Positions 1-15,095 of a DNA stretch of 64,000 bases are shown here, piece by piece; the stretch's first letter is position 1; the number at the start of each line of letters is the position of its first letter. A program made the translations under genes and the position numbers. Source of the DNA: Janthinobacterium sp. SUN073 (GTDB taxonomy: Bacteria > Pseudomonadota > Gammaproteobacteria > Burkholderiales > Burkholderiaceae_D); NCBI RefSeq assembly GCF_030397665.1, contig NZ_JAPUBT010000008.1, positions 99,511 through 163,510 on the forward strand, read 5' to 3'. Below the pieces are notes generated by a model that searched no databases, had not been told where the DNA came from, and saw only the letters and a list, made by a program, of their open reading frames with translations.

Positions 1-60
1 CGTTAACTATCATCTATATCGTGACTGTGCACCGGCAACGACCACGCGGATACAGTTGGC

Positions 61-66
61 TATAAT
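61..66 (+). promoter_or_regulatory. Putative -10 box
   Basis: A perfect TATAAT lies 38 bases before the start codon of the gene at 104. No convincing -35 box is visible, so this rests on the -10 match and its position only. Confidence 0.35.
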
Positions 67-103
67 GTTTACCATCCCATAACACCGAAGAAATGAGAAA
101 CGC

Positions 104-763
104 ATGAGCGAAGCACAGAAGATTGGAGCATTTGATTTGGCGTCGGAATCTATCGACGAAGCTACAGACGCCATACTGGCAAGGCTTGCGCATGTGTACT
201 GCATACTTCAGCCGGAAAAAACGAGCGCTGACTTTTGGACCGACGTTATGACGCCAATTGCTGCTGCCACTCCAGACAGCCCACCATCCATCGGCCTCGA
301 CATCTACGCCGAACACTCCGAGCAAACTTACGAGATATTCCTACGATTGATTCTGAGGGTCATAGATCACGTTGCAGAAGCAACGACAGCAGATGAGCAG
401 CACACCCAGGTCAATGCGTGGGCACAAATCGCCAATGCCATGTACCAGTTGGGGATGCTAGAGAACTCGTTGGTGTTGGAGCCGGCCGTAGGCCAGATCA
501 TTGCGCACCGCAATTCTGATCGAGCTGCCGTAGCGGCAAAAGGCCGTAGCGGAAAATATGACCCACTCCGCAAGCTAGCAGGAGAGTTGGCGGTGAAAAA
601 GCCATTTACCAGTCGGCGCCAAGCAGCCTTGAGCATGAAGGCCGAAATATTAGCGGCGGCAAAGGATCTCGGCATATCGCTGTCTGAACTCCAAGCCGAA
701 CGGACTATCACTGGTTGGCTAGAAAGTATGACGTTTGCTAAGAAAACGCAAACTCTAACGTAG
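104..763 (+). CDS. Hypothetical protein, 219 aa
   Basis: I do not recognise this protein. It is mostly alpha-helical in appearance, acidic in the first 150 residues and more basic after it (RSGKYDPLRKLAGELAVKK), ending with a helix-turn-helix-like stretch around residues 175-210 (AEILAAAKDLGISLSEL). That C-terminal part could bind nucleic acid or be a structural helix pair; neither can be claimed. No signal peptide or membrane segment is visible. The ATG lies at a normal distance from a TATAAT box, and the gene starts the visible part of the mobile element. It is followed by the unrelated, more AT-rich gene at 900. Confidence 0.65.
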   Translation: MSEAQKIGAFDLASESIDEATDAILARLAHVYCILQPEKTSADFWTDVMTPIAAATPDSPPSIGLDIYAEHSEQTYEIFLRLILRVIDHVAEATTADEQHTQVNAWAQIANAMYQLGMLENSLVLEPAVGQIIAHRNSDRAAVAAKGRSGKYDPLRKLAGELAVKKPFTSRRQAALSMKAEILAAAKDLGISLSELQAERTITGWLESMTFAKKTQTLT

Positions 764-828
764 CAAACGCCAACGTCAGCACTGACAACGCTGGCGTCGG
801 CATAGCGGACGGGCTATATCTCGACATT

Positions 829-894
829 CCTTTTAATTAAAGTTCAGTTATCCGATCAGACGGTCGGGATTAAACAAAAACTCAAATTAAAAGG
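829..894 (+). promoter_or_regulatory. Leader inverted repeat covering the ribosome-binding site
   Basis: CCTTTTAATT (829-838) and AATTAAAAGG (885-894) are perfect complements. The right arm contains the AAGG Shine-Dalgarno of the gene starting at 900, so a folded transcript would hide it. A weaker inner dyad (TCCGA at 851-855, TCGGGA at 864-869) could extend the fold. This looks like translational control by RNA structure, but a protein operator is equally possible. Confidence 0.45.
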
Positions 895-899
895 AAAAT

Positions 900-1949
900 A
901 TGTCTATCAACGACTCCATCAAATCCGGCTACATCAATCCGAACCTTACCGTTGTAGTAGATAATGTAAGCAATCCGAATGGAGTATCACTAGATAAAAC
1001 GAAAAATATTAATATTTTAGCAAACACATCCATTCCAAGTTATCCTATTGTTGTCGTTAGCCCATCAAGCCAGATTATTACAGCGACTTTTAACTATTCC
1101 ACAATCGATACAAGCAAGCCGGAGAAAATATCGAATAGCATTCTTGTGATGGATGCGGTGGTTTATGAATTTCTTTCTGATCTTGAAAAAATCTCTGAAG
1201 CGGGAAAATCCGCCGAAAAAGAAAAAACTAATTTCACAAAAAAAGTACAATCCCGGGCCGTTCATGATTTGGCTAAAATTATTGGAATTCACGACAAATA
1301 CTTTAAAAATGTCGCCGCACATCAAACTTACATCCTGATGCAAGAGCTGCGTAAAAAAATCGGAATAGCAGAAAATAAGAAAACAACAGCCTTTCATTTA
1401 TTATCTCGCCAATATCGTGGCAATGATACTAGACAGGCTTCCGCTGATGCTAAGATTTTAAATTATGCTTATGAATTAAAGAAAGATGAGCACACATTCG
1501 CGCAATGGATTTTTGATTGCGGAGGACTAAATGCGGCGAAGGAAAAAAGTATTGGATACGAAAAAGAGCAAGCGAAAAAAAATGACCCAAATCCATATAA
1601 GGCTCCCAGTGTAGCGAAGCAAAAAGCTTTATTTAATGCCATGGAAAAGTCTGTACAAAATATTGCAAAGGCACAACAGACGACAGACGTTTTTTCGATT
1701 AAAAAAAGCGAATTGCCAGATATGTTTAGCACACTGCGCCCCTATGGCGGCAGCAACTGGCGCGTGTTTGCGGTAAATGTTGAAGAAGGCGAGGATGCTG
1801 AAGGCTATGCAGAGACGGTACTGCACTTTCATGCTTTCCATAACAAAGTTCCAGATCATGGGCGTCTCTACAAAGGTACACGCCTTGATGCTTCAGGTAC
1901 CAGCGACAGTGCGTGGCCAGAATGGATGCTAGAGAAAAAAGCTGACTGA
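900..1949 (+). CDS. Hypothetical protein, 349 aa
   Basis: This is an unrecognised cytoplasmic-looking protein with no signal peptide or membrane span. It has a beta-rich N-terminus (residues 1-75, many Asn, Val, Ile and Ser), a lysine-rich helical middle (about 90-260) and a compact C-terminus (about 270-349) with the patch ETVLHFHAFHNKVPDHGRLY. Lysine and asparagine are abundant and codons are AT-rich, unlike the chromosomal genes further right, which fits recent transfer. The start has AAGGAAAAT just before ATG, placed inside a leader hairpin. It may be a defence or phage-related effector because of its position in an element with a restriction enzyme, but nothing in the protein shows this. 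Confidence 0.65.
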   Translation: MSINDSIKSGYINPNLTVVVDNVSNPNGVSLDKTKNINILANTSIPSYPIVVVSPSSQIITATFNYSTIDTSKPEKISNSILVMDAVVYEFLSDLEKISEAGKSAEKEKTNFTKKVQSRAVHDLAKIIGIHDKYFKNVAAHQTYILMQELRKKIGIAENKKTTAFHLLSRQYRGNDTRQASADAKILNYAYELKKDEHTFAQWIFDCGGLNAAKEKSIGYEKEQAKKNDPNPYKAPSVAKQKALFNAMEKSVQNIAKAQQTTDVFSIKKSELPDMFSTLRPYGGSNWRVFAVNVEEGEDAEGYAETVLHFHAFHNKVPDHGRLYKGTRLDASGTSDSAWPEWMLEKKAD

Positions 1950-1972
1950 AAAAAGAAGGGACGTAGGCTAAT

Positions 1973-1997
1973 AAGTTATCGGGTCGGCCGATAACTT
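1973..1997. promoter_or_regulatory. Perfect 10-bp inverted repeat, TATCGG-N5-CCGATA type
   Basis: AAGTTATCGG and CCGATAACTT are separated by GTCGG, 24 bases after the stop of the gene at 900. There is no T-run, so a rho-independent terminator is not well supported. Spacer length and core (TCGG-N5-CCGA) match the dyads at 5853, 12762 and 13401, so it may be a diverged member of the same operator family. Confidence 0.45.
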
Positions 1998-2227
1998 CTA
2001 ACCGCAATCGGCATAGGCGACACGAGATCGATGCCTGACTGCAAAAACAGGTCAGGCTAGTAGCACACCTCACCCAAGCTAGAAAAAGCGCTGGCGTGAC
2101 GAACTCGTCAATCCTTGGCGTGGCTCAACACAAGCCAGCTAGTCCATCGCTACTGTGACCACAAAGACAACAAAAATCCAGTTGAACAACATTTTTATTG
2201 CCATTTGGAAATTCACGGCACCCATTC

Positions 2228-2240
2228 TGCTATAATTTTT
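2228..2240 (+). promoter_or_regulatory. Extended -10 promoter element
   Basis: TGCTATAATTTTT has a perfect extended -10 (TG-N-TATAAT), with a leader of about 105 bases to the ATG at 2344. The same 13 bases occur at 13531, again about 110 bases before a start codon, so two genes of the element seem to share a promoter type. The rest of 1950-2343 has no gene I can support. Confidence 0.5.
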
Positions 2241-2343
2241 ATAGCGTTTTATTCCGAGCAAATTTTCTGCCTCGAAGCAAGCGTGCCAACGATTGTGTCA
2301 AGCTAACGACAACAATCACAACAATTAACAAGTCGGAGAACAA

Positions 2344-3555
2344 ATGAGATTTAAGCATGGATATAGTCTAATTTTTGGAACGATGATCACACTAGCTCTG
2401 GTTGGATGCGGTGGCGGCGGTACTGCGTTGCCATCAACCACACCAGTACCACCGGTTGTTGTCACACCCCCACCAGCTCTACCTCCTATCGCAGTCAAGT
2501 CATCATCGTATGCAAATGCCAAGGATATGAACATTGATCCGCAAACGTATCCGAAGCTGGCGCAAAACAATGAACTTATTACCTCTGGCGTCGCGTTTGC
2601 CGACTTTTTCCAAGAAGGCAAGATGTCTATGGTTGCCTTTAGCAACGTGTTCGCTGGTGCTAACGGATTCGGTTCACTCGTTCCTGGTAAGGTTTACTTC
2701 TTCCAGAAAGACGCGAATGGTGCCTGGACGGACAAGACCGCTAGGGTATTAGATGACACCACCGGATGTCTTTCTCCGCGCAAAGTAATCGTCGCCGACT
2801 TTAACGGTGACGGTAAACCAGACGTGTTTGCTGCTTGTCATGGTATCGACGGGGAAATACCAGTTGGTGGTAAGTTTGGTGAACATCCAAGGATGTTACT
2901 GAGTCAGGTCAATGGCACTTATAAGAACGTTGACATGGGGTTTGACTGTTACTGCCACGGTGCTTCGGCTGCTGAAATGAACACCAAGGGTTATGCCGAT
3001 ATAGTCGTAACTGACTCAGCTATCCATGGTCAGCCGTTCTTTCTGATCAACAACAAGAATGGCACGTTCACTGCTGACTACCGCCGGATGCCTCCATCCA
3101 CCGAAAAGAACAGTTTGACTTGCGCTATTAGCTGCCCTCTGCAAATTTATAGCGTAGAGCTAATCGACTTTGATAATGCCGGAAAATTTGACCTGTGGCT
3201 CGGCGGCACCAACGATAAATCGATCGCTAGCTTTGCGCCGTCAATCTTCAAGAACCCTGGCAACAACGATTTTAGCAACGCAGCGGTGACAATTCTGCCT
3301 AGCGTGGTCGGGTATCCACTGGTCTTGTCACTAGACATTGTATTCGTGAATGACACGATTTATATGTCGATGGTGGACCAGAACTACGAAACCTTCGGCA
3401 TCCAAAAAATTGATTACAAAACATTGTCAAGTAAGTTGGTATATAACCATACAGGTCGATTCCCGAACAACTACTTGTGGGTTGACTGGGTAATGCCACG
3501 GAACAACAAGATCGTGTCCTTAGATTCAACCTTTGGGCTAGGAATTAACGACTAA
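2344..3555 (+). CDS. VCBS/FG-GAP repeat lipoprotein (copy 1)
   Basis: This 403-residue protein has a lipoprotein signal: basic start, hydrophobic stretch, then LALVGC with Cys22 followed by a Gly-rich and Pro-rich linker. The rest has FG-GAP/VCBS-type repeats, best seen at VADFNGDGKPDVFAACHG, where DFNGDGKPD is a typical calcium-binding loop; later repeats are degenerate (DFDNAGKFDLWLG). A beta-propeller fold on the outer membrane or cell surface is therefore likely. A distinctive CYCHGASA follows the intact repeat and is shared with the neighbour at 3837. GGAG lies before ATG. Binding of a polymer or a partner cell is possible but unproven. Confidence 0.75.
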   Translation: MRFKHGYSLIFGTMITLALVGCGGGGTALPSTTPVPPVVVTPPPALPPIAVKSSSYANAKDMNIDPQTYPKLAQNNELITSGVAFADFFQEGKMSMVAFSNVFAGANGFGSLVPGKVYFFQKDANGAWTDKTARVLDDTTGCLSPRKVIVADFNGDGKPDVFAACHGIDGEIPVGGKFGEHPRMLLSQVNGTYKNVDMGFDCYCHGASAAEMNTKGYADIVVTDSAIHGQPFFLINNKNGTFTADYRRMPPSTEKNSLTCAISCPLQIYSVELIDFDNAGKFDLWLGGTNDKSIASFAPSIFKNPGNNDFSNAAVTILPSVVGYPLVLSLDIVFVNDTIYMSMVDQNYETFGIQKIDYKTLSSKLVYNHTGRFPNNYLWVDWVMPRNNKIVSLDSTFGLGIND

Positions 3556-3836
3556 ATCCTCGATTTAAAAGTAGCCCTGCAAACGGGGCTTCCTACAATT
3601 TGTTTCACATCGCCACCTCGGCTAGCCAGCCATACTTGATGCCAATGCCACCAATCAAGAACCAAAAAAATCGTTCTTTTTGGCAATATATTTTATTCCA
3701 ATTTTAAAAATAAAAACCATTTATTAATTACTTTTACAGCAATTAATATCGAGAAAATTTTTCACATCGAGGCACGCGCACAATCATTGCGCTTAGGTCA
3801 CGGCGGCAATCACATCACGAAAAGATCGGAGAACAA
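3556..3836. other. AT-rich spacer between the two lipoprotein genes
   Basis: A weak hairpin (AGCCC...GGGCT, about 3573-3590) follows the first lipoprotein gene without a clear T-run. The last ~80 bases before 3837 resemble the corresponding bases before 2344, ending in the same CGGAGAACAAATGAGATT stretch, so gene and leader were duplicated together. No ORF is supportable here. Confidence 0.4.
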
Positions 3837-5255
3837 ATGAGATTTAAGCATGAGCATAGCCTATTTTTTGGAGCAATTTTCACGCTGGCTCTTACAGCTT
3901 GTGGCGGAGGTGGTTCCGCTTCGTCGGTACCCACTCCACCACCCCAAGTTGCAAATGCCCCGACTGCAACCGTAACGCTTAGCACGAATAAGGCAAAGAC
4001 TGGTGACAATGTGTCTGTTACTTGGAACTCTACGGATGCAACGTCCTGCGTCGGATCTGACGCGCTATCGACGAGTACGACTTCCGGCGCCACTGCTGTA
4101 ACTGCGGCGCCCGGTCAAACTAAGTTCACACTAACCTGCACGGGTGCAGGCGGCAGTAAGATCGCAACAGCTACGCTTGCTGTTCCGTTGCCAGTTATGG
4201 CGACATCAAATCTTAATGCAAAATCGCTGAATACAGCACCAAAGGCGATGCCGACATATGTAAGTACGAATGCCTACAATGAGTCTGCAGGCAGCGGGGT
4301 TGCTTTTGGTGACTTCTTACAAACGGGTGAGTTATCGTTGGTTGTTGCCACCAACAGGTTTTCGATCGACCCGACAAAACCCAATCCAGTAGGTGCCATA
4401 CATTTTTACAAGTATATGGATGGGAAGCCTGTTGATGTGACGTCAACGTTACTGACAGACACGACTGGCTGTGTAGCCCCACGTCGTGTCCTTGTGGCAG
4501 ATTTCAACAACGACGGTAAACCCGATTTGTTCTTATCGTGTCATGGTGCGGAATTTGGCCCAATAGCAAGCTGGCCTGGCGAACAACCACGCATTATTCT
4601 TAGCCAACCCGACGGCACCTATAAAAATACCCCTGCGCCGATTACATGTTACTGCCATGGCGCATCTGCTGGCGATGTCGACCGTGACGGCAATATAGAC
4701 ATACTCGTGAGTGACCTTAATCGCTCACGAGACGGTCGTTCTAGCTTTGTAATGCTGCGTGGAGATGGCAAAGGCGGCTTCCGCGAAGCTCCTACAGGGT
4801 TTATTGCATCAAATGCCGATTACACGATGTTTGACAAGGCATACTATAACGGCGCGTTTGATGTTGAATTGATTGACTTCAACGGCGACGGCTTGCTTGA
4901 CTTATTTCTTGGCACTGGAGAACTTCAGACAACACCGCGTATTTTATTGGGTGACGGTACTGGTCGATTCATGAACACCTTAGTTAGCTTTGAGAAGGGC
5001 CCTAGTGACTATCATCTCAACGACGCAGTCTTTTTGAATGGTTATTTGTATGTCTATACCAACCTAAACAGCGATAACTACAAGAGTCAGATTCGCAAAT
5101 ACGATCTGGTCACTGGACGATATACGCTGATTTATGATGGAGCAAAAGCTTATCCAAATTGGACAACATACAGTAACGATAACGTGTTCATCATGCCCTA
5201 TAAAGGTACCTTGGTAGCTTATGATAGCCGATTTTCGCTTGCTATCCCTATCTGA
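3837..5255 (+). CDS. VCBS/FG-GAP repeat lipoprotein (copy 2, with extra Ig-like domain)
   Basis: This paralogue of the gene at 2344 opens with the same MRFKH and a lipobox (LALTAC, Cys22). It has a domain the first copy lacks: residues ~40-120 look like an Ig-like beta-sandwich (TVTLSTNKAKTGDNVSVTW, paired Cys in ATSCVG and LTCTG). The propeller part keeps three good calcium loops: DFNNDGKPDLF, DVDRDGNIDIL and DFNGDGLLDLF. CYCHGASA is conserved. It is probably an outer-membrane or surface-exposed binding protein. The tandem arrangement points to duplication followed by domain gain or loss. Confidence 0.78.
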   Translation: MRFKHEHSLFFGAIFTLALTACGGGGSASSVPTPPPQVANAPTATVTLSTNKAKTGDNVSVTWNSTDATSCVGSDALSTSTTSGATAVTAAPGQTKFTLTCTGAGGSKIATATLAVPLPVMATSNLNAKSLNTAPKAMPTYVSTNAYNESAGSGVAFGDFLQTGELSLVVATNRFSIDPTKPNPVGAIHFYKYMDGKPVDVTSTLLTDTTGCVAPRRVLVADFNNDGKPDLFLSCHGAEFGPIASWPGEQPRIILSQPDGTYKNTPAPITCYCHGASAGDVDRDGNIDILVSDLNRSRDGRSSFVMLRGDGKGGFREAPTGFIASNADYTMFDKAYYNGAFDVELIDFNGDGLLDLFLGTGELQTTPRILLGDGTGRFMNTLVSFEKGPSDYHLNDAVFLNGYLYVYTNLNSDNYKSQIRKYDLVTGRYTLIYDGAKAYPNWTTYSNDNVFIMPYKGTLVAYDSRFSLAIPI

Positions 5256-5473
5256 CCATATCTCGGTTGAATGAAACTTGGGGCCGCATCAGGGATACGG
5301 AATTTTATGGGAACAGTTGATTTTTGCAAAATCCCAGCGGCCCCCTTGTGCACTTTCGACGAGAAAATTCAAACTCAAGAGCGTCCAGACTATCAGTGGC
5401 GATTTATAAATTATTTCTTGGACGGTCGATGCTTACGCTCTTACAGCGGTTGTGAAGGTGCTGGCAATAGTCG
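5256..5473. other. Intergenic region with a GC-rich inverted repeat
   Basis: GGGGCCGC (5280-5287) and GCGGCCCC (5337-5344) can pair around a 49-base loop that holds GGGA and TCCC segments. There is no T-run. This could be a terminator-like structure or a small RNA; a 68-codon frame here has no Shine-Dalgarno or recognisable protein and is left out. Confidence 0.3.
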
Positions 5474-5827
5474 TTAGCCGTTCGCAGCCTGTATCAAGCA
5501 CTTCGATAGCTTGTCGAAGTGCAGCAGCGCAGCCTGAGTAAGCTCGATCTGCTTGCGGCGCGTGTCCTCAGTGTCGGACAGCATAATCCAGCCCTTCTCA
5601 CGCATGGACTTGAGCCGACTGTGAACGGTAGCGGGTGAACCGAATTCGTCTTTGGCCATCATGTCACGGACAGACAGCCGCTGCTCATCTTGTCCAGCAC
5701 GGGCGACGATAGCAAGAATACGTTCTTCAAGGGGATCGAGCGAAGGCAGGGACGGCAAACCACGCAACGCTTCTGCCAACTGCAAGAAACGCATATAAAT
5801 ATCGGCAGGTCGTTTAGGATGTGTCAT
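5474..5827 (-). CDS. MarR-like winged-helix transcriptional regulator
   Basis: This 117-residue regulator contains a winged-helix DNA-binding domain over residues ~45-105: LSVRDMMAKDEFGSPATVHS forms the helix-turn-helix, followed by RLKSMREKGWIML and a basic wing (TEDTRRKQIELT). That order is typical of MarR-type proteins, though it is shorter than most. The start is placed at MTHPKRPAD because upstream codons read through an operator-like dyad at 5853-5871, 26 bases before this ATG, which suggests autoregulation. It lies downstream of the membrane protein gene (stop at 5908). The same dyad before the restriction-modification gene makes this the best candidate controller of the element. Confidence 0.7.
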   Translation of the reverse strand: MTHPKRPADIYMRFLQLAEALRGLPSLPSLDPLEERILAIVARAGQDEQRLSVRDMMAKDEFGSPATVHSRLKSMREKGWIMLSDTEDTRRKQIELTQAALLHFDKLSKCLIQAANG

Positions 5828-5852
5828 AAAATCGTTTAAAACTACTCGGGTA

Positions 5853-5871
5853 TTGTCGGACCAACCGACAA
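5853..5871. promoter_or_regulatory. Operator-like dyad TTGTCGG-N5-CCGACAA
   Basis: This is a perfect 7-bp inverted repeat with spacer ACCAA, directly upstream of the winged-helix regulator gene. Near-identical dyads with the same 5-base spacer are at 12762-12778 and 13401-13417. Together they suggest a dimeric regulator, probably the adjacent one, but binding is inferred. Confidence 0.6.
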
Positions 5872-5907
5872 CTGCAATTGCTACAAATTTTAGCACATAG
5901 CCTACCA

Positions 5908-6471
5908 CTAGCGCATTCGTCGCTGAGGCATCGGCAACAGCGATAGCAGCCACTTGGCCGTATACAGAACTATTAAGCTGCCAACCAGATCACCGATCAC
6001 CATAACAAAGAGACCGGGCACCAGTTGGTTACCCCCATGTATCGAGAACCATAGATGATGGAGTAATGGACTCGCAACTGAACAACCCAGTGCGCAGAGC
6101 AGCAAGCGTTGTGGCGTTAGATTGGTCAATGATGCCTGCAAACCGAATCGAGATTGCGCTGCTACATAGACAAGATACGGCCCAATAGCACCAGCTACTG
6201 TACCTGTTGTTGCGCGTAGCGCGTCACCTGGGAAGTAATACCAATAACAGGCAAACCAGCCAGCTACAAGCAGTCCAATCGCCCCTGCCCGTCCAAACAT
6301 CAGTGTACATAAAAGCCGTGTGCCAGCTGGAATGTAAATCCAACCGATGCCTTGTAGAAATTCTGCGCGTCGGAAAAACAGCTCGTTGACAACCATCATC
6401 GCCCCATGAAGGCAGATAGTTCCCACGACCATGTAGAAATCCATTCGGGAAGGCGAAACAGGCTGATTCAT
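5908..6471 (-). CDS. Integral membrane protein of unknown function
   Basis: This 187-residue protein has about five hydrophobic segments (MVVGTICLHGAMMVV, AGAIGLLVAGWFACYWYYF, a middle LLLCALGCSVASPLLHH, and a C-terminal LFVMVIGDLVGSLIVLYTAKW). It ends in a basic tail (PQRRMR). The spacing recalls membrane-embedded sensory modules such as MASE domains, but no signalling domain is attached and I do not assign it. The start at MNQPVSPSR is chosen over an upstream GTG; neither has a strong ribosome-binding site. It is 80 bases upstream of the regulator gene on the same strand. Confidence 0.6.
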   Translation of the reverse strand: MNQPVSPSRMDFYMVVGTICLHGAMMVVNELFFRRAEFLQGIGWIYIPAGTRLLCTLMFGRAGAIGLLVAGWFACYWYYFPGDALRATTGTVAGAIGPYLVYVAAQSRFGLQASLTNLTPQRLLLCALGCSVASPLLHHLWFSIHGGNQLVPGLFVMVIGDLVGSLIVLYTAKWLLSLLPMPQRRMR

Positions 6472-6590
6472 GCTGTATTGAAAATTGCTGCTGCGGTCAC
6501 CAAGACCACATCTCTCTTGCACAACAGTAACACATTCGACGCAAACAGTTCAATGTAAGTGCCCATGCATGCAACACAGCATCCGCAGGC

Positions 6591-6791
6591 TCAAGGCTTC
6601 TTTGAAGGTTGGCACACAGTGGCTGCTCCGTCACTGATGACATATGCCTTCCGTCTAATGGCACGAACAAGCACAGGCCCAGCCCCCGCCGGAATACGAA
6701 CAACTTTTGGGTTTGCGGGGTCAACGGGGTCAACTTCGGCTGCAGCCTTCGGCTTTGTTTTTCTTGCTTGACTGAATTCAACATATCGCAT
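6591..6791 (-). CDS. Small basic hypothetical protein, 66 aa
   Basis: An excellent Shine-Dalgarno (GGAGGTAG, seven bases before ATG) supports this as a real gene despite its size. The protein is basic at the N-terminus (QARKTKPKAAAEVD), has a Pro/Val middle, and ends with Ser-Lys-Lys-Pro. It lies 65 bases downstream of the recombinase gene on the same strand and may be cotranscribed. A role as a recombination directionality factor or DNA-binding accessory is conceivable from position only. Confidence 0.6.
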   Translation of the reverse strand: MRYVEFSQARKTKPKAAAEVDPVDPANPKVVRIPAGAGPVLVRAIRRKAYVISDGAATVCQPSKKP

Positions 6792-6856
6792 TGCAACTAC
6801 CTCCTGCCATATTTAGCAGAAGATCTTTGTATGCAAAAAAATACGCATCAGCCGAT

Positions 6857-7423
6857 CTAAGCAAGTTCGACAGCTACCCGCTGCATGTCGTCATTCACAT
6901 CAATGTAGCGCTGCGTGGTTGCTATATTTTGATGCCCTGCCAAAGCCATCAACACTCGTACGCCAACGCCCTTGCTGGCAAGATTTGTAATGAAAGTTCG
7001 GCGGCCTGAGTGGCTGCTAGCACCATCAATCCCGGCTTCCTTGTAGAGAAAGTGGAAGTGCTGGCACAGGGTGTTGGAGCTAAAGGCCAGACGCTTCTGT
7101 GTGTAGAACAGCGGCATATCGCCCTGCACCCGCTTAAGCGTAGCAAGGTAGGTTGACACTTCCTTTTGCAGGCGTTCGTTTAAAAAGACTGTCCGCGCCC
7201 TGCTCCCTTTGGTCTGTTCTGGCAACAATCGAATTTCCGATCTAACGCGTCCATCCTCCGAGAGCACATCACCGATCCGCAGGGCTGCTACTTCGCCAAC
7301 GCGCATACCGGCTAAATGCGTCATCAACAGCATTGCGCGATTTCTTGCTGCGTGCCGTTTAATTGCAATGAAAGCGAGAATTCGCTTGAGTTCTTTTTCT
7401 GTGAGTGTCTTTGCTTGTGCCAT
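6857..7423 (-). CDS. Short tyrosine recombinase (phage-type integrase, catalytic domain only)
   Basis: This protein cuts and rejoins DNA through a tyrosine intermediate. All catalytic residues can be seen in order: Arg in AGMRVGEVAAL, Lys in EQTKGSRART, HxxR in SSHSGRRTF, His in LAGHQNIATTQ and the nucleophile Tyr in QRYIDV. At 188 residues it lacks the N-terminal core-binding (SAM-like) domain of ordinary integrases (about 300-400 residues). It is the only recombinase in the visible element and the likely agent of integration, although it lies about 6.6 kb from the trmJ junction. The start codon has no good Shine-Dalgarno and sits next to an 11-bp inverted repeat. Confidence 0.85.
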   Translation of the reverse strand: MAQAKTLTEKELKRILAFIAIKRHAARNRAMLLMTHLAGMRVGEVAALRIGDVLSEDGRVRSEIRLLPEQTKGSRARTVFLNERLQKEVSTYLATLKRVQGDMPLFYTQKRLAFSSNTLCQHFHFLYKEAGIDGASSHSGRRTFITNLASKGVGVRVLMALAGHQNIATTQRYIDVNDDMQRVAVELA

Positions 7424-7427
7424 ATAG

Positions 7428-7472
7428 AAAACAAAAGGATTTAATGCACCCGAGGATGCAACCTTTTGTTTT
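7428..7472 (-). promoter_or_regulatory. Inverted repeat immediately upstream of the integrase start
   Basis: AAAACAAAAGG (7428-7438) and CCTTTTGTTTT (7462-7472) pair perfectly around a loop with two TGCA copies. The repeat begins five bases from the integrase ATG and may control integrase translation or be a recombinase or regulator site. Confidence 0.45.
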
Positions 7473-7629
7473 AGAAATCAACCGAAAACTGATGGCAAGT
7501 AATTGCCTTTAATTTCAATAGGTTAGCTGACAATGTAAGAATTTAGCAATTTCCTTATATTTTAAGAAGAAAGATATCTTTTAAAATACTTATTACATAT
7601 AAAACAAGAAGGAAGACTCCAAAGCGGAT

Positions 7630-7662
7630 ACTAGCACCGTCGCGTAGGGTGACAGTGCTAGT
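7630..7662 (-). terminator. Hairpin after the Type ISP gene
   Basis: ACTAGCACCGTC (7630-7641) and GACAGTGCTAGT (7651-7662) form a 12-bp stem with one wobble pair, seven bases past the stop of the gene ending at 7669. There is no strong T-run, so termination efficiency is uncertain. Confidence 0.45.
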
Positions 7663-7668
7663 CAGGCG

Positions 7669-10600
7669 CTAGTTGGATGATATGCTAGCCATAATTTCCA
7701 GAGGCGGCAACGCACGGACAATCTTCATCGTCTCAAGGCTTACCGTAATAACCCTTTGGAATAATTCAAGCGGGTAGCGAGCATTGCCCATCGTTTCAGT
7801 CGCCCACAAATTGGCATCGTTAACGATGCCGCTGTCCTTATGTGTGGTGACTGATTGCCGCTCCATTACCCATTCCAAAGCTGGTTTACCGTTAACAACA
7901 TAGTCGTAAGCTTCCAATGGAATGCCGGTCATAGTGATCTTGTGGTTGTAGACCACACGGGACCTGTCTGTCTTAATTGCGAATTTCATTTGTGTTACTC
8001 GGAAATCAGCATCATCCAGCCCACTCATAAGCAAACCGCCGCCTTCATATCCTACTGGATGACACGGGACCGATTCGTAATTAATATGAAGATCAGCAAG
8101 TTTGCGTCCAGCCTGAGAGAATTTCCAAAAATCCGTAGCGGTCTTAACACATGGAATGCGTGGCAGCTCCTTAGTCAAATTATCAGCGTAACGGTCTCGG
8201 TAGTCAGAAGAATGAAGCAAGCCGTAAACGTAATAAAACACGTCTTCATTTCCAATTACCTCGTTTGGATAAGCGATTTGGAAGTGACTCAAAGCAGATT
8301 GGCTAATGCCGTCATTGCGGGCAAACCCTTGTATAGTGGCCTTTCCAAGTTTTTCCACGGGGGTATCAGCAAATATATCAGCTTGTTTCGAATCTTTGGG
8401 CGATACTTGGTCTTCCTTGCTATAGATATACAGCGGAAAACATTGAGCCTTAGATATCATTTCAAGATCGGGTATTTTGTCTGTCACGAAAGCACAAAAA
8501 TCTTTTGTCGCCCCCCTGCCAGTTACACAAATTACAATATTCTGTATATTCGCTGCTGGAAAAAAATTTGGCACTAGCGCAACATCATTGATAAAGTAAC
8601 GATCAAAATATAGATATTGTTTAGTAAATGGTCTATAGAGGCCGACAGTCATTGTGTTATCACGGTACTCTCGAATGGAAAATTTAGATATATCATTTCG
8701 GAGCGCTCGCGACCAACTTATCTTCGATGGATCCAAGTTAATAAAATCCTCAACAGGAGTTCGCTTATCCAATAAGACTTTAGAGAAAAATTGTTCATAT
8801 CTGTGGGATTCACTATTAAAGAACGAAATCATCTCATTTACTTTTATTGATAACGATTTTTTTGAGAATTGATAAACCCATGCATCGCGATTGGTTTTTA
8901 TCCCCATTGAATAGGTGGAAAAAACCGTTTTTATTCCGTTATCTTTTTTGTCGCCAAGTGAAATAAAATCACTAAAACTATTGTCTCGCTGACTTATCCA
9001 GTCTCCGTGCTCATCTGGTGTAATTGATACCCAACCATTGCTCTCACTAATCCCGGCAATGCTTGTGTAATTACAAATCTTTTCCAATTTTTCATTTTGA
9101 GTCAAATAATCGCCAATGTCGTGCCAGTAAATCTGTCCATGGGTCTTTGCGGCAGGGTTTTTTACGAATAATGTGATCGCAATAGGTGTGCGAGTGCCCT
9201 GACCAAAAACATTATCCTTTTCTTTGCGACGTTGCTCGCCTGATGTTCGAGCATTTCCGCGTAAATGAAACACGTATAAACTACTAAATTCATCGGCCAA
9301 ACATTTACGCAAACCATCAGCGGTATTTGCATCCAAAAAACCAGCGTTCGTCACATATCCGATTACTCCGCTATTGCCGATGCGATCACTTGCCCAACGA
9401 ATTGCCCGAATATAACTATCGTAAAGAGAGTTTTTATTTGTGGCGTTTGATCTTAATGCGTACGTATTTCGAATTTTCTCATCCAACCCAGAATACGCAA
9501 CATTTTGATTATTGTCGTTTGCACTAGCCTGACCCGCAGAGTATGGCGGATTTCCGATAATTACACGAATATCAAGCTTTTTTTGTTTCTTACGGCGTGC
9601 ACTATTCACCACTAAAACTTGATCGACCAAATCCTCTTTTTCGTAAAGCTGGAAAGTGTCAGTCAAACAAATACCTTCAAACGGTTGATATTCTCCGCCA
9701 ACAATATCGTGATAAACGGACTCGATGTTAATTGCGGCAATGTAGTATGCCAACAAAACAATTTCGTTGGCGTGGATTTGACTGCCGTATTTCTTGGGCA
9801 GCTCTGCTTTGCTTATCAGGCCACTTTGCAGCAGTCGCGTGATGAAGGTGCCGGTGCCAGTAAAGGGGTCGATGATATGGACGTTATCGCTGGCAAGCGT
9901 CTGGTCAAACTCACTTTTCAGAATGCCATTGACGCTGTGGATGATGAAGTCCACCACTTCCACCGGCGTATAGACGATGCCCAGGCGTTCCGTCATTCTC
10001 GGGAAGGCGTTGCGGAAAAACTTGTCGTACAGTTCGACCACGATTTTCTGCTTGCCCTCAGCGCTTTGTATGCCGTCGGCGCGCATTGTTACGCTGTCGT
10101 AGAATCGTTGGAGCGTATCGGCTTCCTTCTCCAGGTGATGCTCGTGCAGCACGTCCAGAACACCTTGCATGGCAAGAGACATGGGGTTGTGCTTGGCAAA
10201 ACTGTAGTCCTTGAACAGGGCGTCAAATACCGGCTTGGTTATCAAGTGTTGCGCCAGCATTTCGATGATTTCGGCATCGGTAATGCTGTCGTTCAAATCG
10301 TCGCGCAATTCGTTTGCGAAGCAGTCAAACGCAGCACGTTCTTTAGTATTGTCCGGGTTTTCAACAATGGTCGTTATGCGGGTGATGTGAGTTTGGGCTA
10401 TCTTCGCAATGTCGTTCGCCCAGTCCTCCCAGTGGTGGCGATTGCCGCATTTTTGCACCACCTTGGCGTAAATGGCGCGCTCAATTTCACCAATTTCAAA
10501 TTCCAAAGTTGCTTGCTGCGGAACCTTGTATTCAGCATGGTCTTGACCAATACCAAACTGACCCTTGCCCGTATTGGTCTTGCTCTTGCCACTGCCCTTG

Positions 10601-12627
10601 TCGGCTTTCTTGTTGAGCTTGTCGGTGACGGCGATGACTTCCATTTTTTTCGGGTCTTTGCCAATCAAATCGAGCTTGTTGACCATCGCATCAAAGCGGT
10701 CGTCGTGTGAACGCAAGGCTTGCAACACTTGCCACACGACTTTGTAGGTCTTGTTGTCGTTCAGCGCTTCATGCGCCTCCATGCCATCCGGGATTACGAC
10801 AGGCAGGATTACATAGCCGCGTTTCTTGCCGGGAGCGTTGCGCATGACACGCCCCACCGATTGCACCACGTCCACTTGCGAATTGCGTGGGGTCAGGAAT
10901 AGCACGGCGTCCAGTGCCGGCACGTCCACGCCTTCGGACAAGCAACGTACATTGCTCAAGATGCGGCAGGTGTTATCCGGGGCTTCGGCTTTCAACCATG
11001 TCAGCTTTTCCTCTTTCTGACTGGCGCTCATGCCGCCATCAACGTGGGCCGCTTCACAGGTCAGACGTGCGATGGTCTCAAACTCGTCTTCTTCCTGATA
11101 GGCTTCAACGACTGCCTGGAACATGCCAGCGATGTTCTTTGAACTGACTTTGTGCGTTTTTGCCGTCATGGCATTTTTTTGCGATTCGATGACCTGGCAA
11201 AACGCCACGGCGCGGCGCATAGGATCTGTATCGCCGTTCAAATCGTCTTGCGTATCTTGCTTGCTCAGGGCTTTCCAGCAGCCGATAATCTTGGCCGCAT
11301 CGTCCACCTTGAGTTGATTGTTTTCATCGGCAAGCAAGCTTTGTAGGCGACTGCTAATGTGCTTCGCGTCCACGGCCAGGACGATGACCTTGTAATCGAC
11401 CAGCAGGCCGCGCTTGACGGCCTCGGAAAACGTGATGACATACAGTTCCTCGCCATACAGTGCTTTATCGTCCATCGAGCAAATCGCTACATTGTCCTTC
11501 TCTGCACTTGCTTTGGCGGTGTCGGCATAAATGCGCGGCGTCGCGGTCATATAGATGCGTTTGGCGGAATGGATAAAGTCAGCGTCGTGAACTTTAACGA
11601 AACTGCTTTCATCATCATCGCCAAATGTTGCGCCTGTTGTGCGGTGCGCTTCGTCACAGATAATCAGGTCGAAATCAGCAAGCTCGAATAGCTTCTGAGC
11701 CTTGCTGATAACATCAATCGAGTGATAGGTAGAGAAAACGACGCTCATGTGTTCGTCGTCATGGCGCTTTGCCATTTCTAATGCCAGCCGTGCTGGCTCT
11801 GTCGTGGCTGGGTATCGCAGCTCATGTGCAAAGGTTTGAACCACATCCTCGTCTTTCGCTCGCTTCTTCCCGACATCGCTATCAGAACAGACAGCAAAGC
11901 TGTGTAGCGGCGTGGCGCTTTCCTGCGTCCATTCAGTCAGTGTTTGCGACAGCAAAGAAAGGCTCGGAACCAAGAACAGCACCCGCTTGCCAGCACCAGC
12001 CAATTTTTCAGCAATCTTCAAGCTGGTAAAAGTTTTGCCGGTACCGCAAGCCATGATGAGCTTGCCGCGGTCAGCAGTCATTAACCCATGCTCAGCGGCG
12101 TTCAAGGCAGTCTGCTGGTGTTCACGCAGAGTCTTTTTTGCTTTGATGACTGGCGCTTGGTGCGGGCGGTATTTTGCCCAATCAATCTGACTGTTTTCGA
12201 GATCGTTCAAGTCGATTTTGTTGACAGGCGGCTGCTGATTTTGTAACGCGTCGTTGGCGTGCTCGCTCCAATTGTTGGTCGTGGTGACGATTAGGCGGCG
12301 AGTGAATGGTTTCTTGCCTGAGGCAGTGAAGAAGCTGTCAATGTCGGCCTTTTGAACCTTGTAGTCGTCTGCGTAAAATTTACATTGAATTGCGTGGATT
12401 TCTGCCGTTCCTTGAGTTCGCGCAACAAGATCAATGCCGGTATCGCGACCATCCAAACCGTGCTCTTTTGCCCACTCCGTATATGACCAGACCTTGTCGT
12501 ACAGGTCGCGGTAAGTAGCTTCGTTGCGGAAATAGGTAACGATCAGATCTTCAAAGTAAGTACCTTTTTCGCGTTCACTAACGGATGCTTGTCGGTAGGT
12601 ATCCAGTAATTCATGTAAAGCGGCCAT
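7669..12627 (-). CDS. Type ISP restriction-modification enzyme (nuclease-helicase-methyltransferase)
   Basis: This single chain of about 1,650 residues both modifies and cuts foreign DNA. Domains in order: Mrr-like nuclease (GIDLVA then QCKFY, residues ~65-82); superfamily 2 translocase (MACGTGKT ~194, CDEAH ~324, MTATPR, SVGRVMR ~590); N6-adenine methyltransferase (DPFTGTGTF ~922, GNPPY ~1026); and a C-terminal target-recognition region (~1150-1500). Length and order match the LlaGI/LlaBIII family. The recognition part is much more AT-rich than the helicase part, fitting exchange of specificity. The ATG giving MAALHELL is preferred; a TTG 27 bases upstream is also open. No separate methyltransferase or specificity subunit is needed. 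An operator-like dyad lies ~135 bases upstream. Confidence 0.92.
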   Translation of the reverse strand: MAALHELLDTYRQASVSEREKGTYFEDLIVTYFRNEATYRDLYDKVWSYTEWAKEHGLDGRDTGIDLVARTQGTAEIHAIQCKFYADDYKVQKADIDSFFTASGKKPFTRRLIVTTTNNWSEHANDALQNQQPPVNKIDLNDLENSQIDWAKYRPHQAPVIKAKKTLREHQQTALNAAEHGLMTADRGKLIMACGTGKTFTSLKIAEKLAGAGKRVLFLVPSLSLLSQTLTEWTQESATPLHSFAVCSDSDVGKKRAKDEDVVQTFAHELRYPATTEPARLALEMAKRHDDEHMSVVFSTYHSIDVISKAQKLFELADFDLIICDEAHRTTGATFGDDDESSFVKVHDADFIHSAKRIYMTATPRIYADTAKASAEKDNVAICSMDDKALYGEELYVITFSEAVKRGLLVDYKVIVLAVDAKHISSRLQSLLADENNQLKVDDAAKIIGCWKALSKQDTQDDLNGDTDPMRRAVAFCQVIESQKNAMTAKTHKVSSKNIAGMFQAVVEAYQEEDEFETIARLTCEAAHVDGGMSASQKEEKLTWLKAEAPDNTCRILSNVRCLSEGVDVPALDAVLFLTPRNSQVDVVQSVGRVMRNAPGKKRGYVILPVVIPDGMEAHEALNDNKTYKVVWQVLQALRSHDDRFDAMVNKLDLIGKDPKKMEVIAVTDKLNKKADKGSGKSKTNTGKGQFGIGQDHAEYKVPQQATLEFEIGEIERAIYAKVVQKCGNRHHWEDWANDIAKIAQTHITRITTIVENPDNTKERAAFDCFANELRDDLNDSITDAEIIEMLAQHLITKPVFDALFKDYSFAKHNPMSLAMQGVLDVLHEHHLEKEADTLQRFYDSVTMRADGIQSAEGKQKIVVELYDKFFRNAFPRMTERLGIVYTPVEVVDFIIHSVNGILKSEFDQTLASDNVHIIDPFTGTGTFITRLLQSGLISKAELPKKYGSQIHANEIVLLAYYIAAINIESVYHDIVGGEYQPFEGICLTDTFQLYEKEDLVDQVLVVNSARRKKQKKLDIRVIIGNPPYSAGQASANDNNQNVAYSGLDEKIRNTYALRSNATNKNSLYDSYIRAIRWASDRIGNSGVIGYVTNAGFLDANTADGLRKCLADEFSSLYVFHLRGNARTSGEQRRKEKDNVFGQGTRTPIAITLFVKNPAAKTHGQIYWHDIGDYLTQNEKLEKICNYTSIAGISESNGWVSITPDEHGDWISQRDNSFSDFISLGDKKDNGIKTVFSTYSMGIKTNRDAWVYQFSKKSLSIKVNEMISFFNSESHRYEQFFSKVLLDKRTPVEDFINLDPSKISWSRALRNDISKFSIREYRDNTMTVGLYRPFTKQYLYFDRYFINDVALVPNFFPAANIQNIVICVTGRGATKDFCAFVTDKIPDLEMISKAQCFPLYIYSKEDQVSPKDSKQADIFADTPVEKLGKATIQGFARNDGISQSALSHFQIAYPNEVIGNEDVFYYVYGLLHSSDYRDRYADNLTKELPRIPCVKTATDFWKFSQAGRKLADLHINYESVPCHPVGYEGGGLLMSGLDDADFRVTQMKFAIKTDRSRVVYNHKITMTGIPLEAYDYVVNGKPALEWVMERQSVTTHKDSGIVNDANLWATETMGNARYPLELFQRVITVSLETMKIVRALPPLEIMASISSN

Positions 12628-12761
12628 GTTCGAGGGCTTTCTGTTGGAAAACAATGACCGTTATTATGGCCCACAACGAACACTATCGGGTCTAAAAAGG
12701 CACCATTCTTAAGCGCCCTAACGCTTGCTTTCATATACCGTCTAGAGCCTTGCTCTTGTAC

Positions 12762-12778
12762 TGTCGGTTCAACCGACA
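12762..12778. promoter_or_regulatory. Operator-like dyad TGTCGG-TTCAA-CCGACA
   Basis: This perfect 6-bp inverted repeat with a 5-base spacer lies between the divergent restriction-modification gene (start 12627) and the DUF6641-like gene (start 12906). It could affect either or both. It matches the dyad before the regulator at 5474-5827. Confidence 0.6.
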
Positions 12779-12849
12779 ACTAAACCACCTTTAACAGATA
12801 GTAGGCGAAAGATAATGTTTTAACAAACCATACCCAAAAAGTCATTATT

Positions 12850-12870
12850 TTGTTGATTTTATATCAACAA
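12850..12870. promoter_or_regulatory. Second dyad TTGTTGAT-N5-ATCAACAA in the same divergent region
   Basis: This perfect 8-bp inverted repeat with a 5-base TTTAT spacer ends 35 bases before the start at 12906. Its core differs from the TGTCGG family, so a different regulator is likely. It sits where a promoter for the rightward gene should be. Confidence 0.5.
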
Positions 12871-12905
12871 TACTACACCATCCTTTCCGTGAACAACTAC
12901 TAAGG

Positions 12906-13358
12906 ATGGCAAATATGTCCCTGCTGAACAGCTTGAAAATCGTTACCGCAAAACGCCCTGCCCCTGTATCGCCAATCGCACGTCGCCGTGACATGCTGAT
13001 CACGAAACTGAACGAACAGGTCGCTTACGCCCAAGCCCAGCAAGACGGCGGCGTGTACGCGCCAACGCGCATTTGCACCGTGAAGGATCAAGAGTCCGGC
13101 GAGAGCAAGCGCATTGAAATGCCGAAGCGCGTTAAGCCTTGGTGGTTTACTGATGACAGCGGCAAGCTGTGCCTGGTCGTCAAATACGGCACTAAACCGC
13201 TGGAACTGGCGAAGGGTAAGGTTGCTATCGAGATGACCGCGCAAGCTGACCTGATCCCGACGCTGGAAACGCTGAAAGCTGCTGTATCTGCTGGCGAGTT
13301 GGACGCTCAGATCGAAGTAATGAGCGGCATGCTGCGCAAAGGCTTCGCCAAGAAGTGA
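12906..13358 (+). CDS. DUF6641-like protein
   Basis: This 150-residue soluble protein resembles a family I recall as DUF6641, found on plasmids and islands. Typical stretches are LKIVTAKRPAPVSPIARRRD at the N-terminus, YAPTRICTVKD and KRVKPWWFTDDSGKLCLVV in the middle, and a helical C-terminus (LETLKAAVSAGELDAQI). No enzyme motif or membrane segment is visible. Function is unknown. The gene lies divergent to the Type ISP enzyme and shares the operator-bearing region with it. The ATG at 12906 follows AGGATGGCAAAT; MSLLNSLK three codons on is an alternative start. Confidence 0.75.
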   Translation: MANMSLLNSLKIVTAKRPAPVSPIARRRDMLITKLNEQVAYAQAQQDGGVYAPTRICTVKDQESGESKRIEMPKRVKPWWFTDDSGKLCLVVKYGTKPLELAKGKVAIEMTAQADLIPTLETLKAAVSAGELDAQIEVMSGMLRKGFAKK

Positions 13359-13365
13359 CCTGGCA

Positions 13366-13387
13366 GTTGGCAGCCCATGCTGCCAAC
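13366..13387 (+). terminator. Hairpin after the DUF6641-like gene
   Basis: GTTGGCAGC and GCTGCCAAC pair perfectly around CCAT, seven bases after the stop codon. No T-run follows, so this may protect the mRNA end rather than terminate. Confidence 0.45.
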
Positions 13388-13400
13388 ATCTCTAGCGCAA

Positions 13401-13417
13401 TGTCGGTTTAAACGACA
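13401..13417. promoter_or_regulatory. Operator-like dyad TGTCGG-TTTAA-ACGACA
   Basis: This third copy of the TGTCGG-N5-CCGACA family has one mismatch in the arms. It lies 115 bases upstream of the extended -10 at 13531 and may act on the small gene at 13645. Confidence 0.5.
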
Positions 13418-13530
13418 CCCGCTACCTGCACACGTCTTGAAGTAATAGCTGTTAAGTGCCGTGGGCCAGAGGTCACACCTATACAAACAGCCGCAAAACT
13501 AGCAGCAATCGCGGAACTCTACGTGGAAAC

Positions 13531-13543
13531 TGCTATAATTTTT
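13531..13543 (+). promoter_or_regulatory. Extended -10 promoter element (second copy)
   Basis: TGCTATAATTTTT is identical to 2228-2240 and is followed by a leader of about 105 bases to the ATG at 13645. The ends of both leaders also resemble each other (CAATTAAC then an A-rich stretch before ATG). Confidence 0.5.
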
Positions 13544-13644
13544 GTATCAATATTTTACCCACTATTTGGCAACTATCTGGCGCACCCAATACCTGATTGC
13601 CATCAGCCGAACTGTGCACATCACAATTAACTTGAGTTGAGCAA

Positions 13645-13899
13645 ATGAAGAAAGCGCCAATCGCCCTGATGCAGACAACGCTTGAGAAGTGTGGTGATTG
13701 TGAAATGTGCGGTATTAGAAAAATGTATGCCCGGCTTCGGCTTAACTTGGCTATGGAGCGTTTCCTAAACGCGAGAAACCGGCAAGAAAAAGGGCAAGCG
13801 GCGCGATGGGTAGTCGCTTGGAACGCCCAACTCGTGCAACTGGCAAGCAACTCGCTCCGCCATGAGGAAAAATCACCTACGCATCGATGCAAATTGTGA
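13645..13899 (+). CDS. Small Cys-containing hypothetical protein, 84 aa
   Basis: The N-terminal third holds a tight cysteine cluster (KCGDCEMCGIRKMY), a possible metal-binding knuckle, followed by a basic helical region (MYARLRLNLAMERFLNARNR) and a final Cys near the end. A promoter and ~105-base leader support expression. The Shine-Dalgarno is weak (GAGTTGAG). It is the last gene of the element before the trmJ junction. Nucleic-acid binding is plausible but I recognise no family. Confidence 0.5.
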   Translation: MKKAPIALMQTTLEKCGDCEMCGIRKMYARLRLNLAMERFLNARNRQEKGQAARWVVAWNAQLVQLASNSLRHEEKSPTHRCKL

Positions 13900-13962
13900 C
13901 ATGAAAAATTTCAAAATTCACATATTCTGCGCATTTTTTGCACACAATGCTACGACTGACAG

Positions 13963-13991
13963 GAAAGCCGCATAGGCACAGGCTTTCTTTT
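13963..13991 (+). terminator. Rho-independent terminator at the element edge
   Basis: GAAAGCC (13963-13969) and GGCTTTC (13981-13987) are followed by TTT. It would end rightward transcription just before the trmJ junction. Confidence 0.5.
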
Positions 13992-14000
13992 GTGCAACGC

Positions 14001-14117
14001 TTAACCCATCGTTTTCATGGCGCGCGCGACGCCGCCAATGTTGCCAGGACGACTAGTTTCGACAAGAATAAATCGCAGGCGTTTGAAAAGAGACGTGTTG
14101 ATTTCGGGCAGATTCAT
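14001..14117 (-). pseudogene. trmJ: trmJ 5' fragment truncated by the element
   Basis: Reading leftward from the ATG at 14117, the frame gives 38 residues and a stop. They end with FILVETSRPGNIGGVARAMK followed by Thr-Met-Gly. This is the conserved N-terminus of TrmJ, the SPOUT-family methyltransferase that 2'-O-methylates tRNA position 32. Intact TrmJ is about 250 residues. The match stops abruptly and is followed by AT-rich element DNA, so the rest of the gene was separated by insertion. The fragment is divergent to suhB, the usual arrangement in Burkholderiales. The gene may be completed or replaced at the other end of the element, outside the window. Confidence 0.85.
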
Positions 14118-14121
14118 TTAA

Positions 14122-14133
14122 AATAGCGCTATT
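14122..14133. promoter_or_regulatory. Palindrome AATAGCGCTATT in the trmJ-suhB divergent region
   Basis: This perfect 12-bp palindrome begins five bases before the trmJ start codon and lies 170 bases upstream of suhB. It may be a regulator site or chance; the remainder of 14134-14303 shows nothing definite. Confidence 0.3.
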
Positions 14134-14303
14134 GCGCGGTATCGATACAGGAAATTTCGGGAAACGGAGTCACAAAACGCTGACGCCAGGCCGGGATTTT
14201 AACCACTTCGGCACCGCTCCGCTCTTTAATTCATTCTTGCACTCTATCGTACCGGCGCCGCAAGGCGGCCATGGGCGGTCGCGTGCTTTTAACGGAAGCT
14301 CAC

Positions 14304-15095
14304 ATGCACCCAATGCTCAACACGGCGATCAAAGCCGCCCGCCGCGGCGCCGCCGTCATCAATCGCGCCTCTTTTGACCTCGACCGCGTCGTCGTCACGG
14401 AAAAACAACATAACGATTTCGTCACCGACGTCGATCAGGCGGCCGAACAAGCCATCATCGAGGTGCTGTCCAAAGCCTACCCGGACCACGCGTTCCTGGC
14501 TGAGGAATCGGGAGCTTCCGCCAACTCGCACGACGAGAATGAATATCAGTGGATCATCGACCCGATCGATGGCACCACCAACTTTATCCACGGTTTCCCG
14601 CAATACTGCATCTCGATCGCGCTCGCGCATCGCGGCGTCGTCACGCAAGCCGTCATCTACGATCCGGTCCGCAACGACCTGTTCACGGCCACCAAGGGCG
14701 CCGGCGCCTACCTGAACGAAAAACGCATCCGCGTCACCAAGCTGGACCGCATCTCGAACGCCCTGCTGGGCACCGGCTACGTGGCCGGCAGCGCCCGCGC
14801 GCTGGACGAATACCTGAAGATGTACGCGATCATGGGCGAACGCAGCCAGGGCGTGCGTCGCGCCGGCTCGGCCGCGCTGGACCTGGCCTACGTCGCCTGC
14901 GGCCGCCTGGACGGCTTCTACGAAAAAGGCTTGAAGCCTTGGGATATCGCTGCCGGCGCCCTGATGATCACGGAATCGGGCGGCATCGTCGGTGAATTTT
15001 CCGGCGAATCGGACTACCTGTACAAGGGCGACGTCATCGCCGCCAGCCCGAAGATTTTTGGCCAGATGATCACCCTGCTGACGCCTTTCGCCTGA
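14304..15095 (+). CDS. suhB: Inositol-1-monophosphatase SuhB
   Basis: This cytoplasmic Mg-dependent phosphatase hydrolyses myo-inositol phosphates; in E. coli SuhB also joins the rRNA antitermination complex. The 263-residue length matches the family. Metal-site motifs are present: [16 protein letters not shown] (motif A) and [15 protein letters not shown] (motif B). The start at MHPMLN agrees with the E. coli start and follows GGAAG. The gene is first on the chromosomal side of the trmJ junction and ends at a strong bidirectional terminator. Confidence 0.97.

Follow-up and report, generated by a model that had tools for sequence, protein, structure and literature searches.

A ~17.5-kb island very probably entered the genome of Janthinobacterium sp. 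SUN073 (G000) by site-specific integration into trmJ at the codons for ARAMKTMG, bringing a leader that would now drive the full-length gene. The window that we analysed is a 64,000-nt stretch of this 6.45-Mb, 34-contig draft genome (contig C33, positions 99511-163510). On the excised circle, we propose, there would be a trmJ-like leader with a start codon and the opening 33-38 codons. A single crossover within ~22 bp centred on CCAT-GAAAACG-ATGG would then leave the native leader and 5' end beside suhB as a 38-codon stub and join the island's leader and 5' end to the remainder of trmJ, so that the gene would stay full length and be read from the island leader. The likely catalyst is a 344-aa tyrosine integrase, which would probably bind 17-bp repeats near both ends of the island.

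Window positions 14117..14001 on the minus strand translate to MNLPEINTSLFKRLRFILVETSRPGNIGGVARAMKTMG followed by a stop, and these are the first 38 codons of the native trmJ. A sequence-only reading of the window had taken this ORF for the first 38 residues of TrmJ, broken by foreign DNA; the translation and the leader match described below confirm it. The stub is trmJ-like up to GATGGGTT, where identity to empty sites stops. The AT-richer DNA that the same reading saw beyond this point is evident in the GC content per kb, which is 0.39-0.53 in window positions 1-14000 and 0.53-0.72 after them. The left copy, correctly placed outside the window, was found ~3.5 kb to its left: a full-length trmJ with an open 254-aa frame (C33 95269-96033, minus strand) that contains the rest of the gene and a second copy of the core. 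This is the only intact trmJ in the genome above the family cut-off (TIGR00050, 201 bits). The start codons of the full gene and the stub lie 17,594 bp apart, and the target gene forms a direct repeat at both island ends (a 137/145 block, with 1 mismatch within the 38 codons). An intact trmJ immediately to the left of this junction in the same strain, named beforehand as an observation against the insertion, was looked for and was absent; the intact copy is found at the opposite end of the element, where 5'-end replacement predicts it. The features of the window are given in Table 1; the host gene beside the stub is one that we take from its sequence to be suhB.

Table 1. Features of the island and its right junction, in window positions
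Feature	Position	Strand	Basis
Island part within window	1..14002		rest outside
219-aa island ORF, no family	104..763	+	profile searches
349-aa island ORF, no assigned family	900..1949	+	weak phrog_5075, E 0.0028
FG-GAP repeat protein, cargo	2344..3555	+	PF13517
Second FG-GAP repeat protein, cargo	3837..5255	+	PF13517
Winged-helix regulator-like ORF, relative in G244 insertion	5474..5953	-	PF01726 below cut-off
Membrane-protein-like ORF, relative in G244 insertion	5908..6522	-	G244 relative matches MASE1 below cut-off
188-aa small tyrosine recombinase, mid-island, away from junctions	6857..7423	-	PF00589 E 1.7e-30, phrog_216
Type ISP restriction-modification enzyme, 1661 aa	7669..12654	-	PF18135, PF22240, PF13156; PADLOC REase_MTase_IIG 2460.8 bits
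DUF6641 / phrog_31551 protein	12906..13358	+	Pfam, PHROGs
84-aa island ORF, relative in G244 insertion	13645..13899	+	ORF; no Pfam or PHROGs match
Terminal repeat TGCGCATTTTTTGCACA, right end, candidate integrase arm site	13928..13944	+	exact 17-bp copy
TAA stop of stub	14001-14003	-	created at junction
Native trmJ 5' end, 38 codons, severed by insertion	14004..14117	-	translation, leader match, empty sites
Putative crossover core CCATGAAAACGATGG (CCAT-7 bp-ATGG), right-junction copy	14006..14020	-	copy comparison
Native trmJ/suhB divergent intergenic region, holds displaced native trmJ leader	14118..14270		spacing in relatives
suhB (inositol monophosphatase type), host flank	14271..15095	+	ORF; divergent neighbour of trmJ in relatives

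We searched 392 family genomes with the 38-aa peptide. A match was found in 382, and four carried a second trmJ 5' end (G000, G244, G325 and G333). The 100-nt leaders of both copies in these four genomes were each compared with the three nearest empty-site relatives, giving 12 comparisons. The stub leader of G000 matched its relatives at 99/100, 99/100 and 100/100, and the stub leaders of G000, G244, G325 and G333 matched their single nearest empty relative at 99, 94, 99 and 100 of 100 nt, respectively. Matches of at least 94/100 were seen in 9 of the 12 stub comparisons; the remaining ones were G325 against L035 (90/101) and G333 against the more distant L068 and L063 (59/134 each). In contrast, the full-copy leaders gave 42-59 matches in all 12 comparisons. 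The host-like stub leader and the unlike full-copy leader together show that the insertion cut the native gene and that the element provided a new leader and 5' end, a restoration that the sequence-only reading had not anticipated. When the native 5' flank was joined at the core to the sequence downstream, the result was an open 254-aa TrmJ that matches four empty relatives at 863-880 of 925 nt. As in islands of the dusA type, the leader and 5' end of the target have thus been replaced by island DNA in a gene of full length, whose product may well be an active TrmJ. A consensus promoter scan of both leaders found no promoter in the trmJ direction, so the activity of the island leader is one that we infer only.

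The replacement can also be discerned within the coding part in one of the four genomes compared, G333. Against its close relative L062, the stub matches at 60/60 over coding nucleotides 1-60, where the full copy matches at 53/60; over nucleotides 61-117 the full copy matches at 57/57. The full trmJ of G333 is thus a direct chimera of a foreign 5' part and the host remainder. Stub and full copy are equally host-like in the coding part of G000. A 9-nt insertion common to both copies blurs the comparison in G325, where the test does not discriminate; the element may have come from a near relative, or the copies may have been homogenised. The stub of G244 (53/60, 47/57) is further from relatives than its full copy (56/60, 54/57), a divergence that we ascribe to drift or decay of the dead stub.

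The core lies 97 nt after the ATG in both trmJ copies. Differences between the copies all lie to its left, at codon 26 in G000 and, with the insertion not counted, at codon 31 in G325, and identity stops just to its right in both genomes. The run common to both copies is CGGGCCATGAAAACGATGGGTT (22 bp) in G325 and CGCGCCATGAAAACG (15 bp) in G244, the latter perhaps shortened by mutation of the stub. These comparisons narrow the crossover to ~22 bp around CCAT-GAAAACG-ATGG, although the exact bases exchanged can only be inferred. The middle of the core has short inverted arms flanking 7 bp, and tyrosine recombinases use short inverted arms around 7 bp. The core DNA encodes ARAMKTMG, which is conserved in an alignment to the solved TrmJ 4cnd and whose arginine is presumably catalytic.

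Other exact copies of the 17-bp repeat TGCGCATTTTTTGCACA are located at C33 96261 and 96296 at the left end, 35 bp apart. The repeat is thus present three times in 73.5 kb, twice at the left end of the island, once at the right and nowhere else. The next best match in the 73.5 kb has 3 mismatches and is the sole further one at that threshold or below. In shuffles, the expectation for the window was 0.03 matches with two mismatches allowed (3 of 100 had one), and that for L006 was 0.29 with three allowed (6 of 200 had two or more). Similar spaced repeats lie upstream of the integrase in a Rugamonas MAG and in Janthinobacterium sp. LM6. Site-specific integration with a core near ATGAAAACGATGGG, as first read from the window, is therefore supported by the second copy, the empty sites, the junction integrase, the terminal repeats and the recurrence elsewhere.

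The left 3.5 kb of the island, with the left junction, the integrase and a 463-aa protein (P0002), lies outside the window (C33 96.0-99.5 kb). The 344-aa tyrosine integrase adjoins the left junction (C33 96345-97379; PF00589, E 2.4e-30; phrog_1), with 311 bp between the start of its gene and the start codon of trmJ. The sequence-only reading had instead named the 188-aa recombinase as the driver. That protein does have a tyrosine recombinase catalytic domain (Table 1), but it is mid-island, ~6.6 kb from the right junction, and on this position we rejected it; moreover, the 344-aa integrase has a 90% identical copy (299 residues compared) adjoining trmJ in another genus, in the Rugamonas MAG. 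Integration of the element by the 188-aa recombinase is thus very unlikely, and the 344-aa integrase is the likely driver. The conserved enzyme motif encoded by the target DNA would explain how one integrase type could work across genera.

A search of the 392 family genomes with the integrase (E 1e-40) matched four: G000, LM6 (G123), G250 and G069, the last with two matches of 32-36%. LM6 has a 63% relative directly after a gene that we take from its sequence to be fghA. There, an element again appears to restore a conserved protein gene that it has entered, by carrying the missing part, and the integrase group may favour conserved coding DNA, judging from these two targets. The 3' half of the LM6 fghA is repeated 5.4 kb on, at 491/502 (98%; L013 9293-9794 and 14735-15236). 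G250 holds a 150-aa C-terminal integrase remnant (88%; L048 8081-8530) that adjoins another large recombinase-like ORF, and its trmJ is elsewhere on the contig.

The region between the trmJ copies appears, from its boundaries and content, to be a mobile genomic island. It encodes a Type ISP enzyme with nuclease, helicase, coupler, methylase and C-terminal specificity domains on one chain (PF13156, PF04851, PF22240, PF02384 and PF18135). The two FG-GAP genes are in tandem and have similar N-termini. P0002, beside the integrase (L006 7638-9029), had no match in Pfam, PHROGs, NCBIfam or PDB and no phage or plasmid match at 1e-5; in PADLOC it had a single weak match (E 0.0028), and a viral contig (L124) holds one relative, at 35%. 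Twelve island ORFs searched against Pfam included no relaxase or mating-pair genes.

It is possible, though not probable, that the element is a phage satellite or decayed prophage and not an autonomous island, which would be compatible with the proposed integration mechanism. Ten island ORFs searched against PHROGs gave integrases and unknown families and no phage structural or packaging genes. Phage and plasmid records gave no match to the integrase at E 1e-20. Two IMG/VR contigs carry an 85% identical integrase (L070, L071, L074-L076) together with podophage-like terminase, portal and coat ORFs and a sensor-kinase-like ORF, but these genes were judged by eye and the contigs are without an attachment site. 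Because the first bases of both contigs are the ATG of the integrase, the attachment site of these prophages has been lost, and no arm-type repeat was found in the examined pieces of the two UViG prophages.

Comparison with related genomes, as the sequence-only reading had suggested, revealed both empty and occupied sites. We inspected 81 further genomes from the single-match genomes listed (28 genus-level loci plus 13 plus 40), and 79 had an empty site with trmJ and suhB divergent and ~90-177 bp apart. At all 28 genus-level loci the homologous sequence continues into a full-length trmJ, and suhB is divergent at ~154-158 bp. The other two of the 81, G387 and G356, carry cryptic insertions at trmJ. 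A seventh occupied site, on the Rugamonas MAG contig, is known by its left junction only. trmJ therefore appears to be a recurrent landing site in related species.

The five small inserts have start-to-start distances of 749 to 2,613 bp. G387 has 876 bp between trmJ and suhB, with a 153-aa ORF; its 0.75-kb insert is shorter than the integrase gene. The G356 insert holds a 446-aa HisKA/HATPase protein, and the G244 insert keeps relatives of three island ORFs. The 2.6-kb G325 insert (L046 1643-3201) encodes homologues of PDC-M18A and PDC-M18B (PADLOC E 2.5e-149 and 8.2e-72), a candidate phage-defence pair, and the G333 insert (L047 1684-3541) encodes a GIY-YIG protein and two ORFs without a family. 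No match to the 344-aa integrase was found in the G244, G325, G333 and G356 inserts. With no integrase match at five of the seven occupied sites, the link between integrase and site is drawn from G000 and the Rugamonas MAG; against it, the 63% relative in LM6 occupies a different gene. The occupied sites thus mix an integrase-bearing island with small remnants or cassettes. Small, integrase-free inserts with attachment-like ends on both sides are known as cis-mobilizable elements (CIMEs). The small trmJ inserts resemble CIMEs in both respects; unlike CIMEs, those of G244 and G325 are without the left-end repeats, which argues against their free mobility and makes mobilisation in trans doubtful.

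The leaders of the elements are at odds with the relationships of their hosts. The element leaders match at 101/105 between G000 and G325 and at 80/106 between G000 and G244, whereas the host trmJ genes match at 466/592 and 521/574, respectively. The right ends beyond the stub agree with the leaders (94/111 for G000/G325, 71/110 for G000/G244), and the native leaders match at 97/105 and 100/105, respectively. The elements have thus moved horizontally. Left-end DNA was found in 3 of 40 genus genomes, always at trmJ, and a leader-plus-start pattern was found without mismatch in 4 of 392 genomes, all at trmJ (G000, G244, G325 and G356), and with two mismatches in G226. The full-copy leaders of G333 and G387 differ from the G000 type, and the insertions may therefore belong to more than one element family.

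Two copies could also arise without an integrase if trmJ 5' ends underwent homologous recombination, for instance after uptake of trmJ-flanked DNA, and small inserts might spread in this way. The long block common to the copies (137/145), the five inserts without an integrase match and the 502-bp duplication in LM6 are consistent with such exchange, but it would leave unexplained the near-identical junction integrase genes and spaced repeats at two occupied sites and the common core at which full and stub copies diverge in G000, G244 and G325. We consider it quite unlikely as the origin of the island. An assembly error or a simple gene duplication is extremely unlikely: the genome is a draft of 34 contigs, but both junctions lie within one 250-kb contig and the same split occurs with different inserts in other assemblies. 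A broader but unlikely reading of the small inserts is that Janthinobacterium and the family to which it belongs, presumably Oxalobacteraceae, have in trmJ a dock for cassettes. The cassettes would be small modules for defence or regulation, often without an integrase, and each would bring a trmJ leader and 5' end of its own. Integrases specific for trmJ would swap them in and out in trans, and TrmJ expression would change with every swap. If so, tRNA modification would be tied to the resident mobile DNA.

Site-specific integration with 5'-end replacement, the reading that we favour, has precedents. SXT supplies a new promoter and start to prfC. The integration site of SXT/R391 is the 5' end of prfC (PMC4489591), and the trmJ island likewise occupies the 5' end of a conserved protein-coding gene; SXT/R391 is conjugative, whereas no conjugation gene was found among the scanned ORFs of the trmJ island. 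SGI1 in trmE is also an island in a tRNA-modification gene but is described as using the 3' end (PMC8409611), whereas the trmJ island uses the 5' part. The closest likeness is to the dusA islands and prophages, in which island sequence takes the place of the native 5' end, itself left as a remnant; both versions have putative promoters, and excision was shown by PCR (PMC4482086). Like these, the trmJ island bears an integrase, has its target in the 5' part of a tRNA-modification gene with a core of conserved coding DNA, and replaces the 5' end of the target while the gene stays whole; it would presumably excise as well. Unlike these, its target is trmJ and not dusA or dusB, and several trmJ inserts are without a match to the integrase. 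The island-supplied part also includes the conserved GN-R portion of the enzyme motif, whereas the replaced part of DusA is described as without known cofactor or tRNA contact (PMC4482086).

The principle of 5' replacement is thus already known from dusA islands. As in the sequence-only reading, which knew of no description, trmJ was not found as an integration target in the literature searched, a body that left most subscription papers and all supplementary tables outside its reach. trmJ may be among the targets listed in the TIGER target-gene study. These results extend the targets of 5'-replacing islands by a tRNA-modification gene, trmJ, whose enzyme carries out 2'-O-methylation at tRNA position 32, and mark the trmJ site as a place to look for defence genes in these bacteria. 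The leader swap also makes an effect of mobile DNA on TrmJ expression testable.

An order-wide search with a 29-aa TrmJ peptide matched 381 of 399 genomes, 13 of the 399 being from the family of the window. No split trmJ was found among these 399 beyond G000, in a search that a degraded stub escapes, as two did in the family. G429 gave two matches that we rejected as a split trmJ, since they are full-length frames of 257 and 259 aa on different contigs. G442, a genome 84% complete, has one frame of 106 aa.
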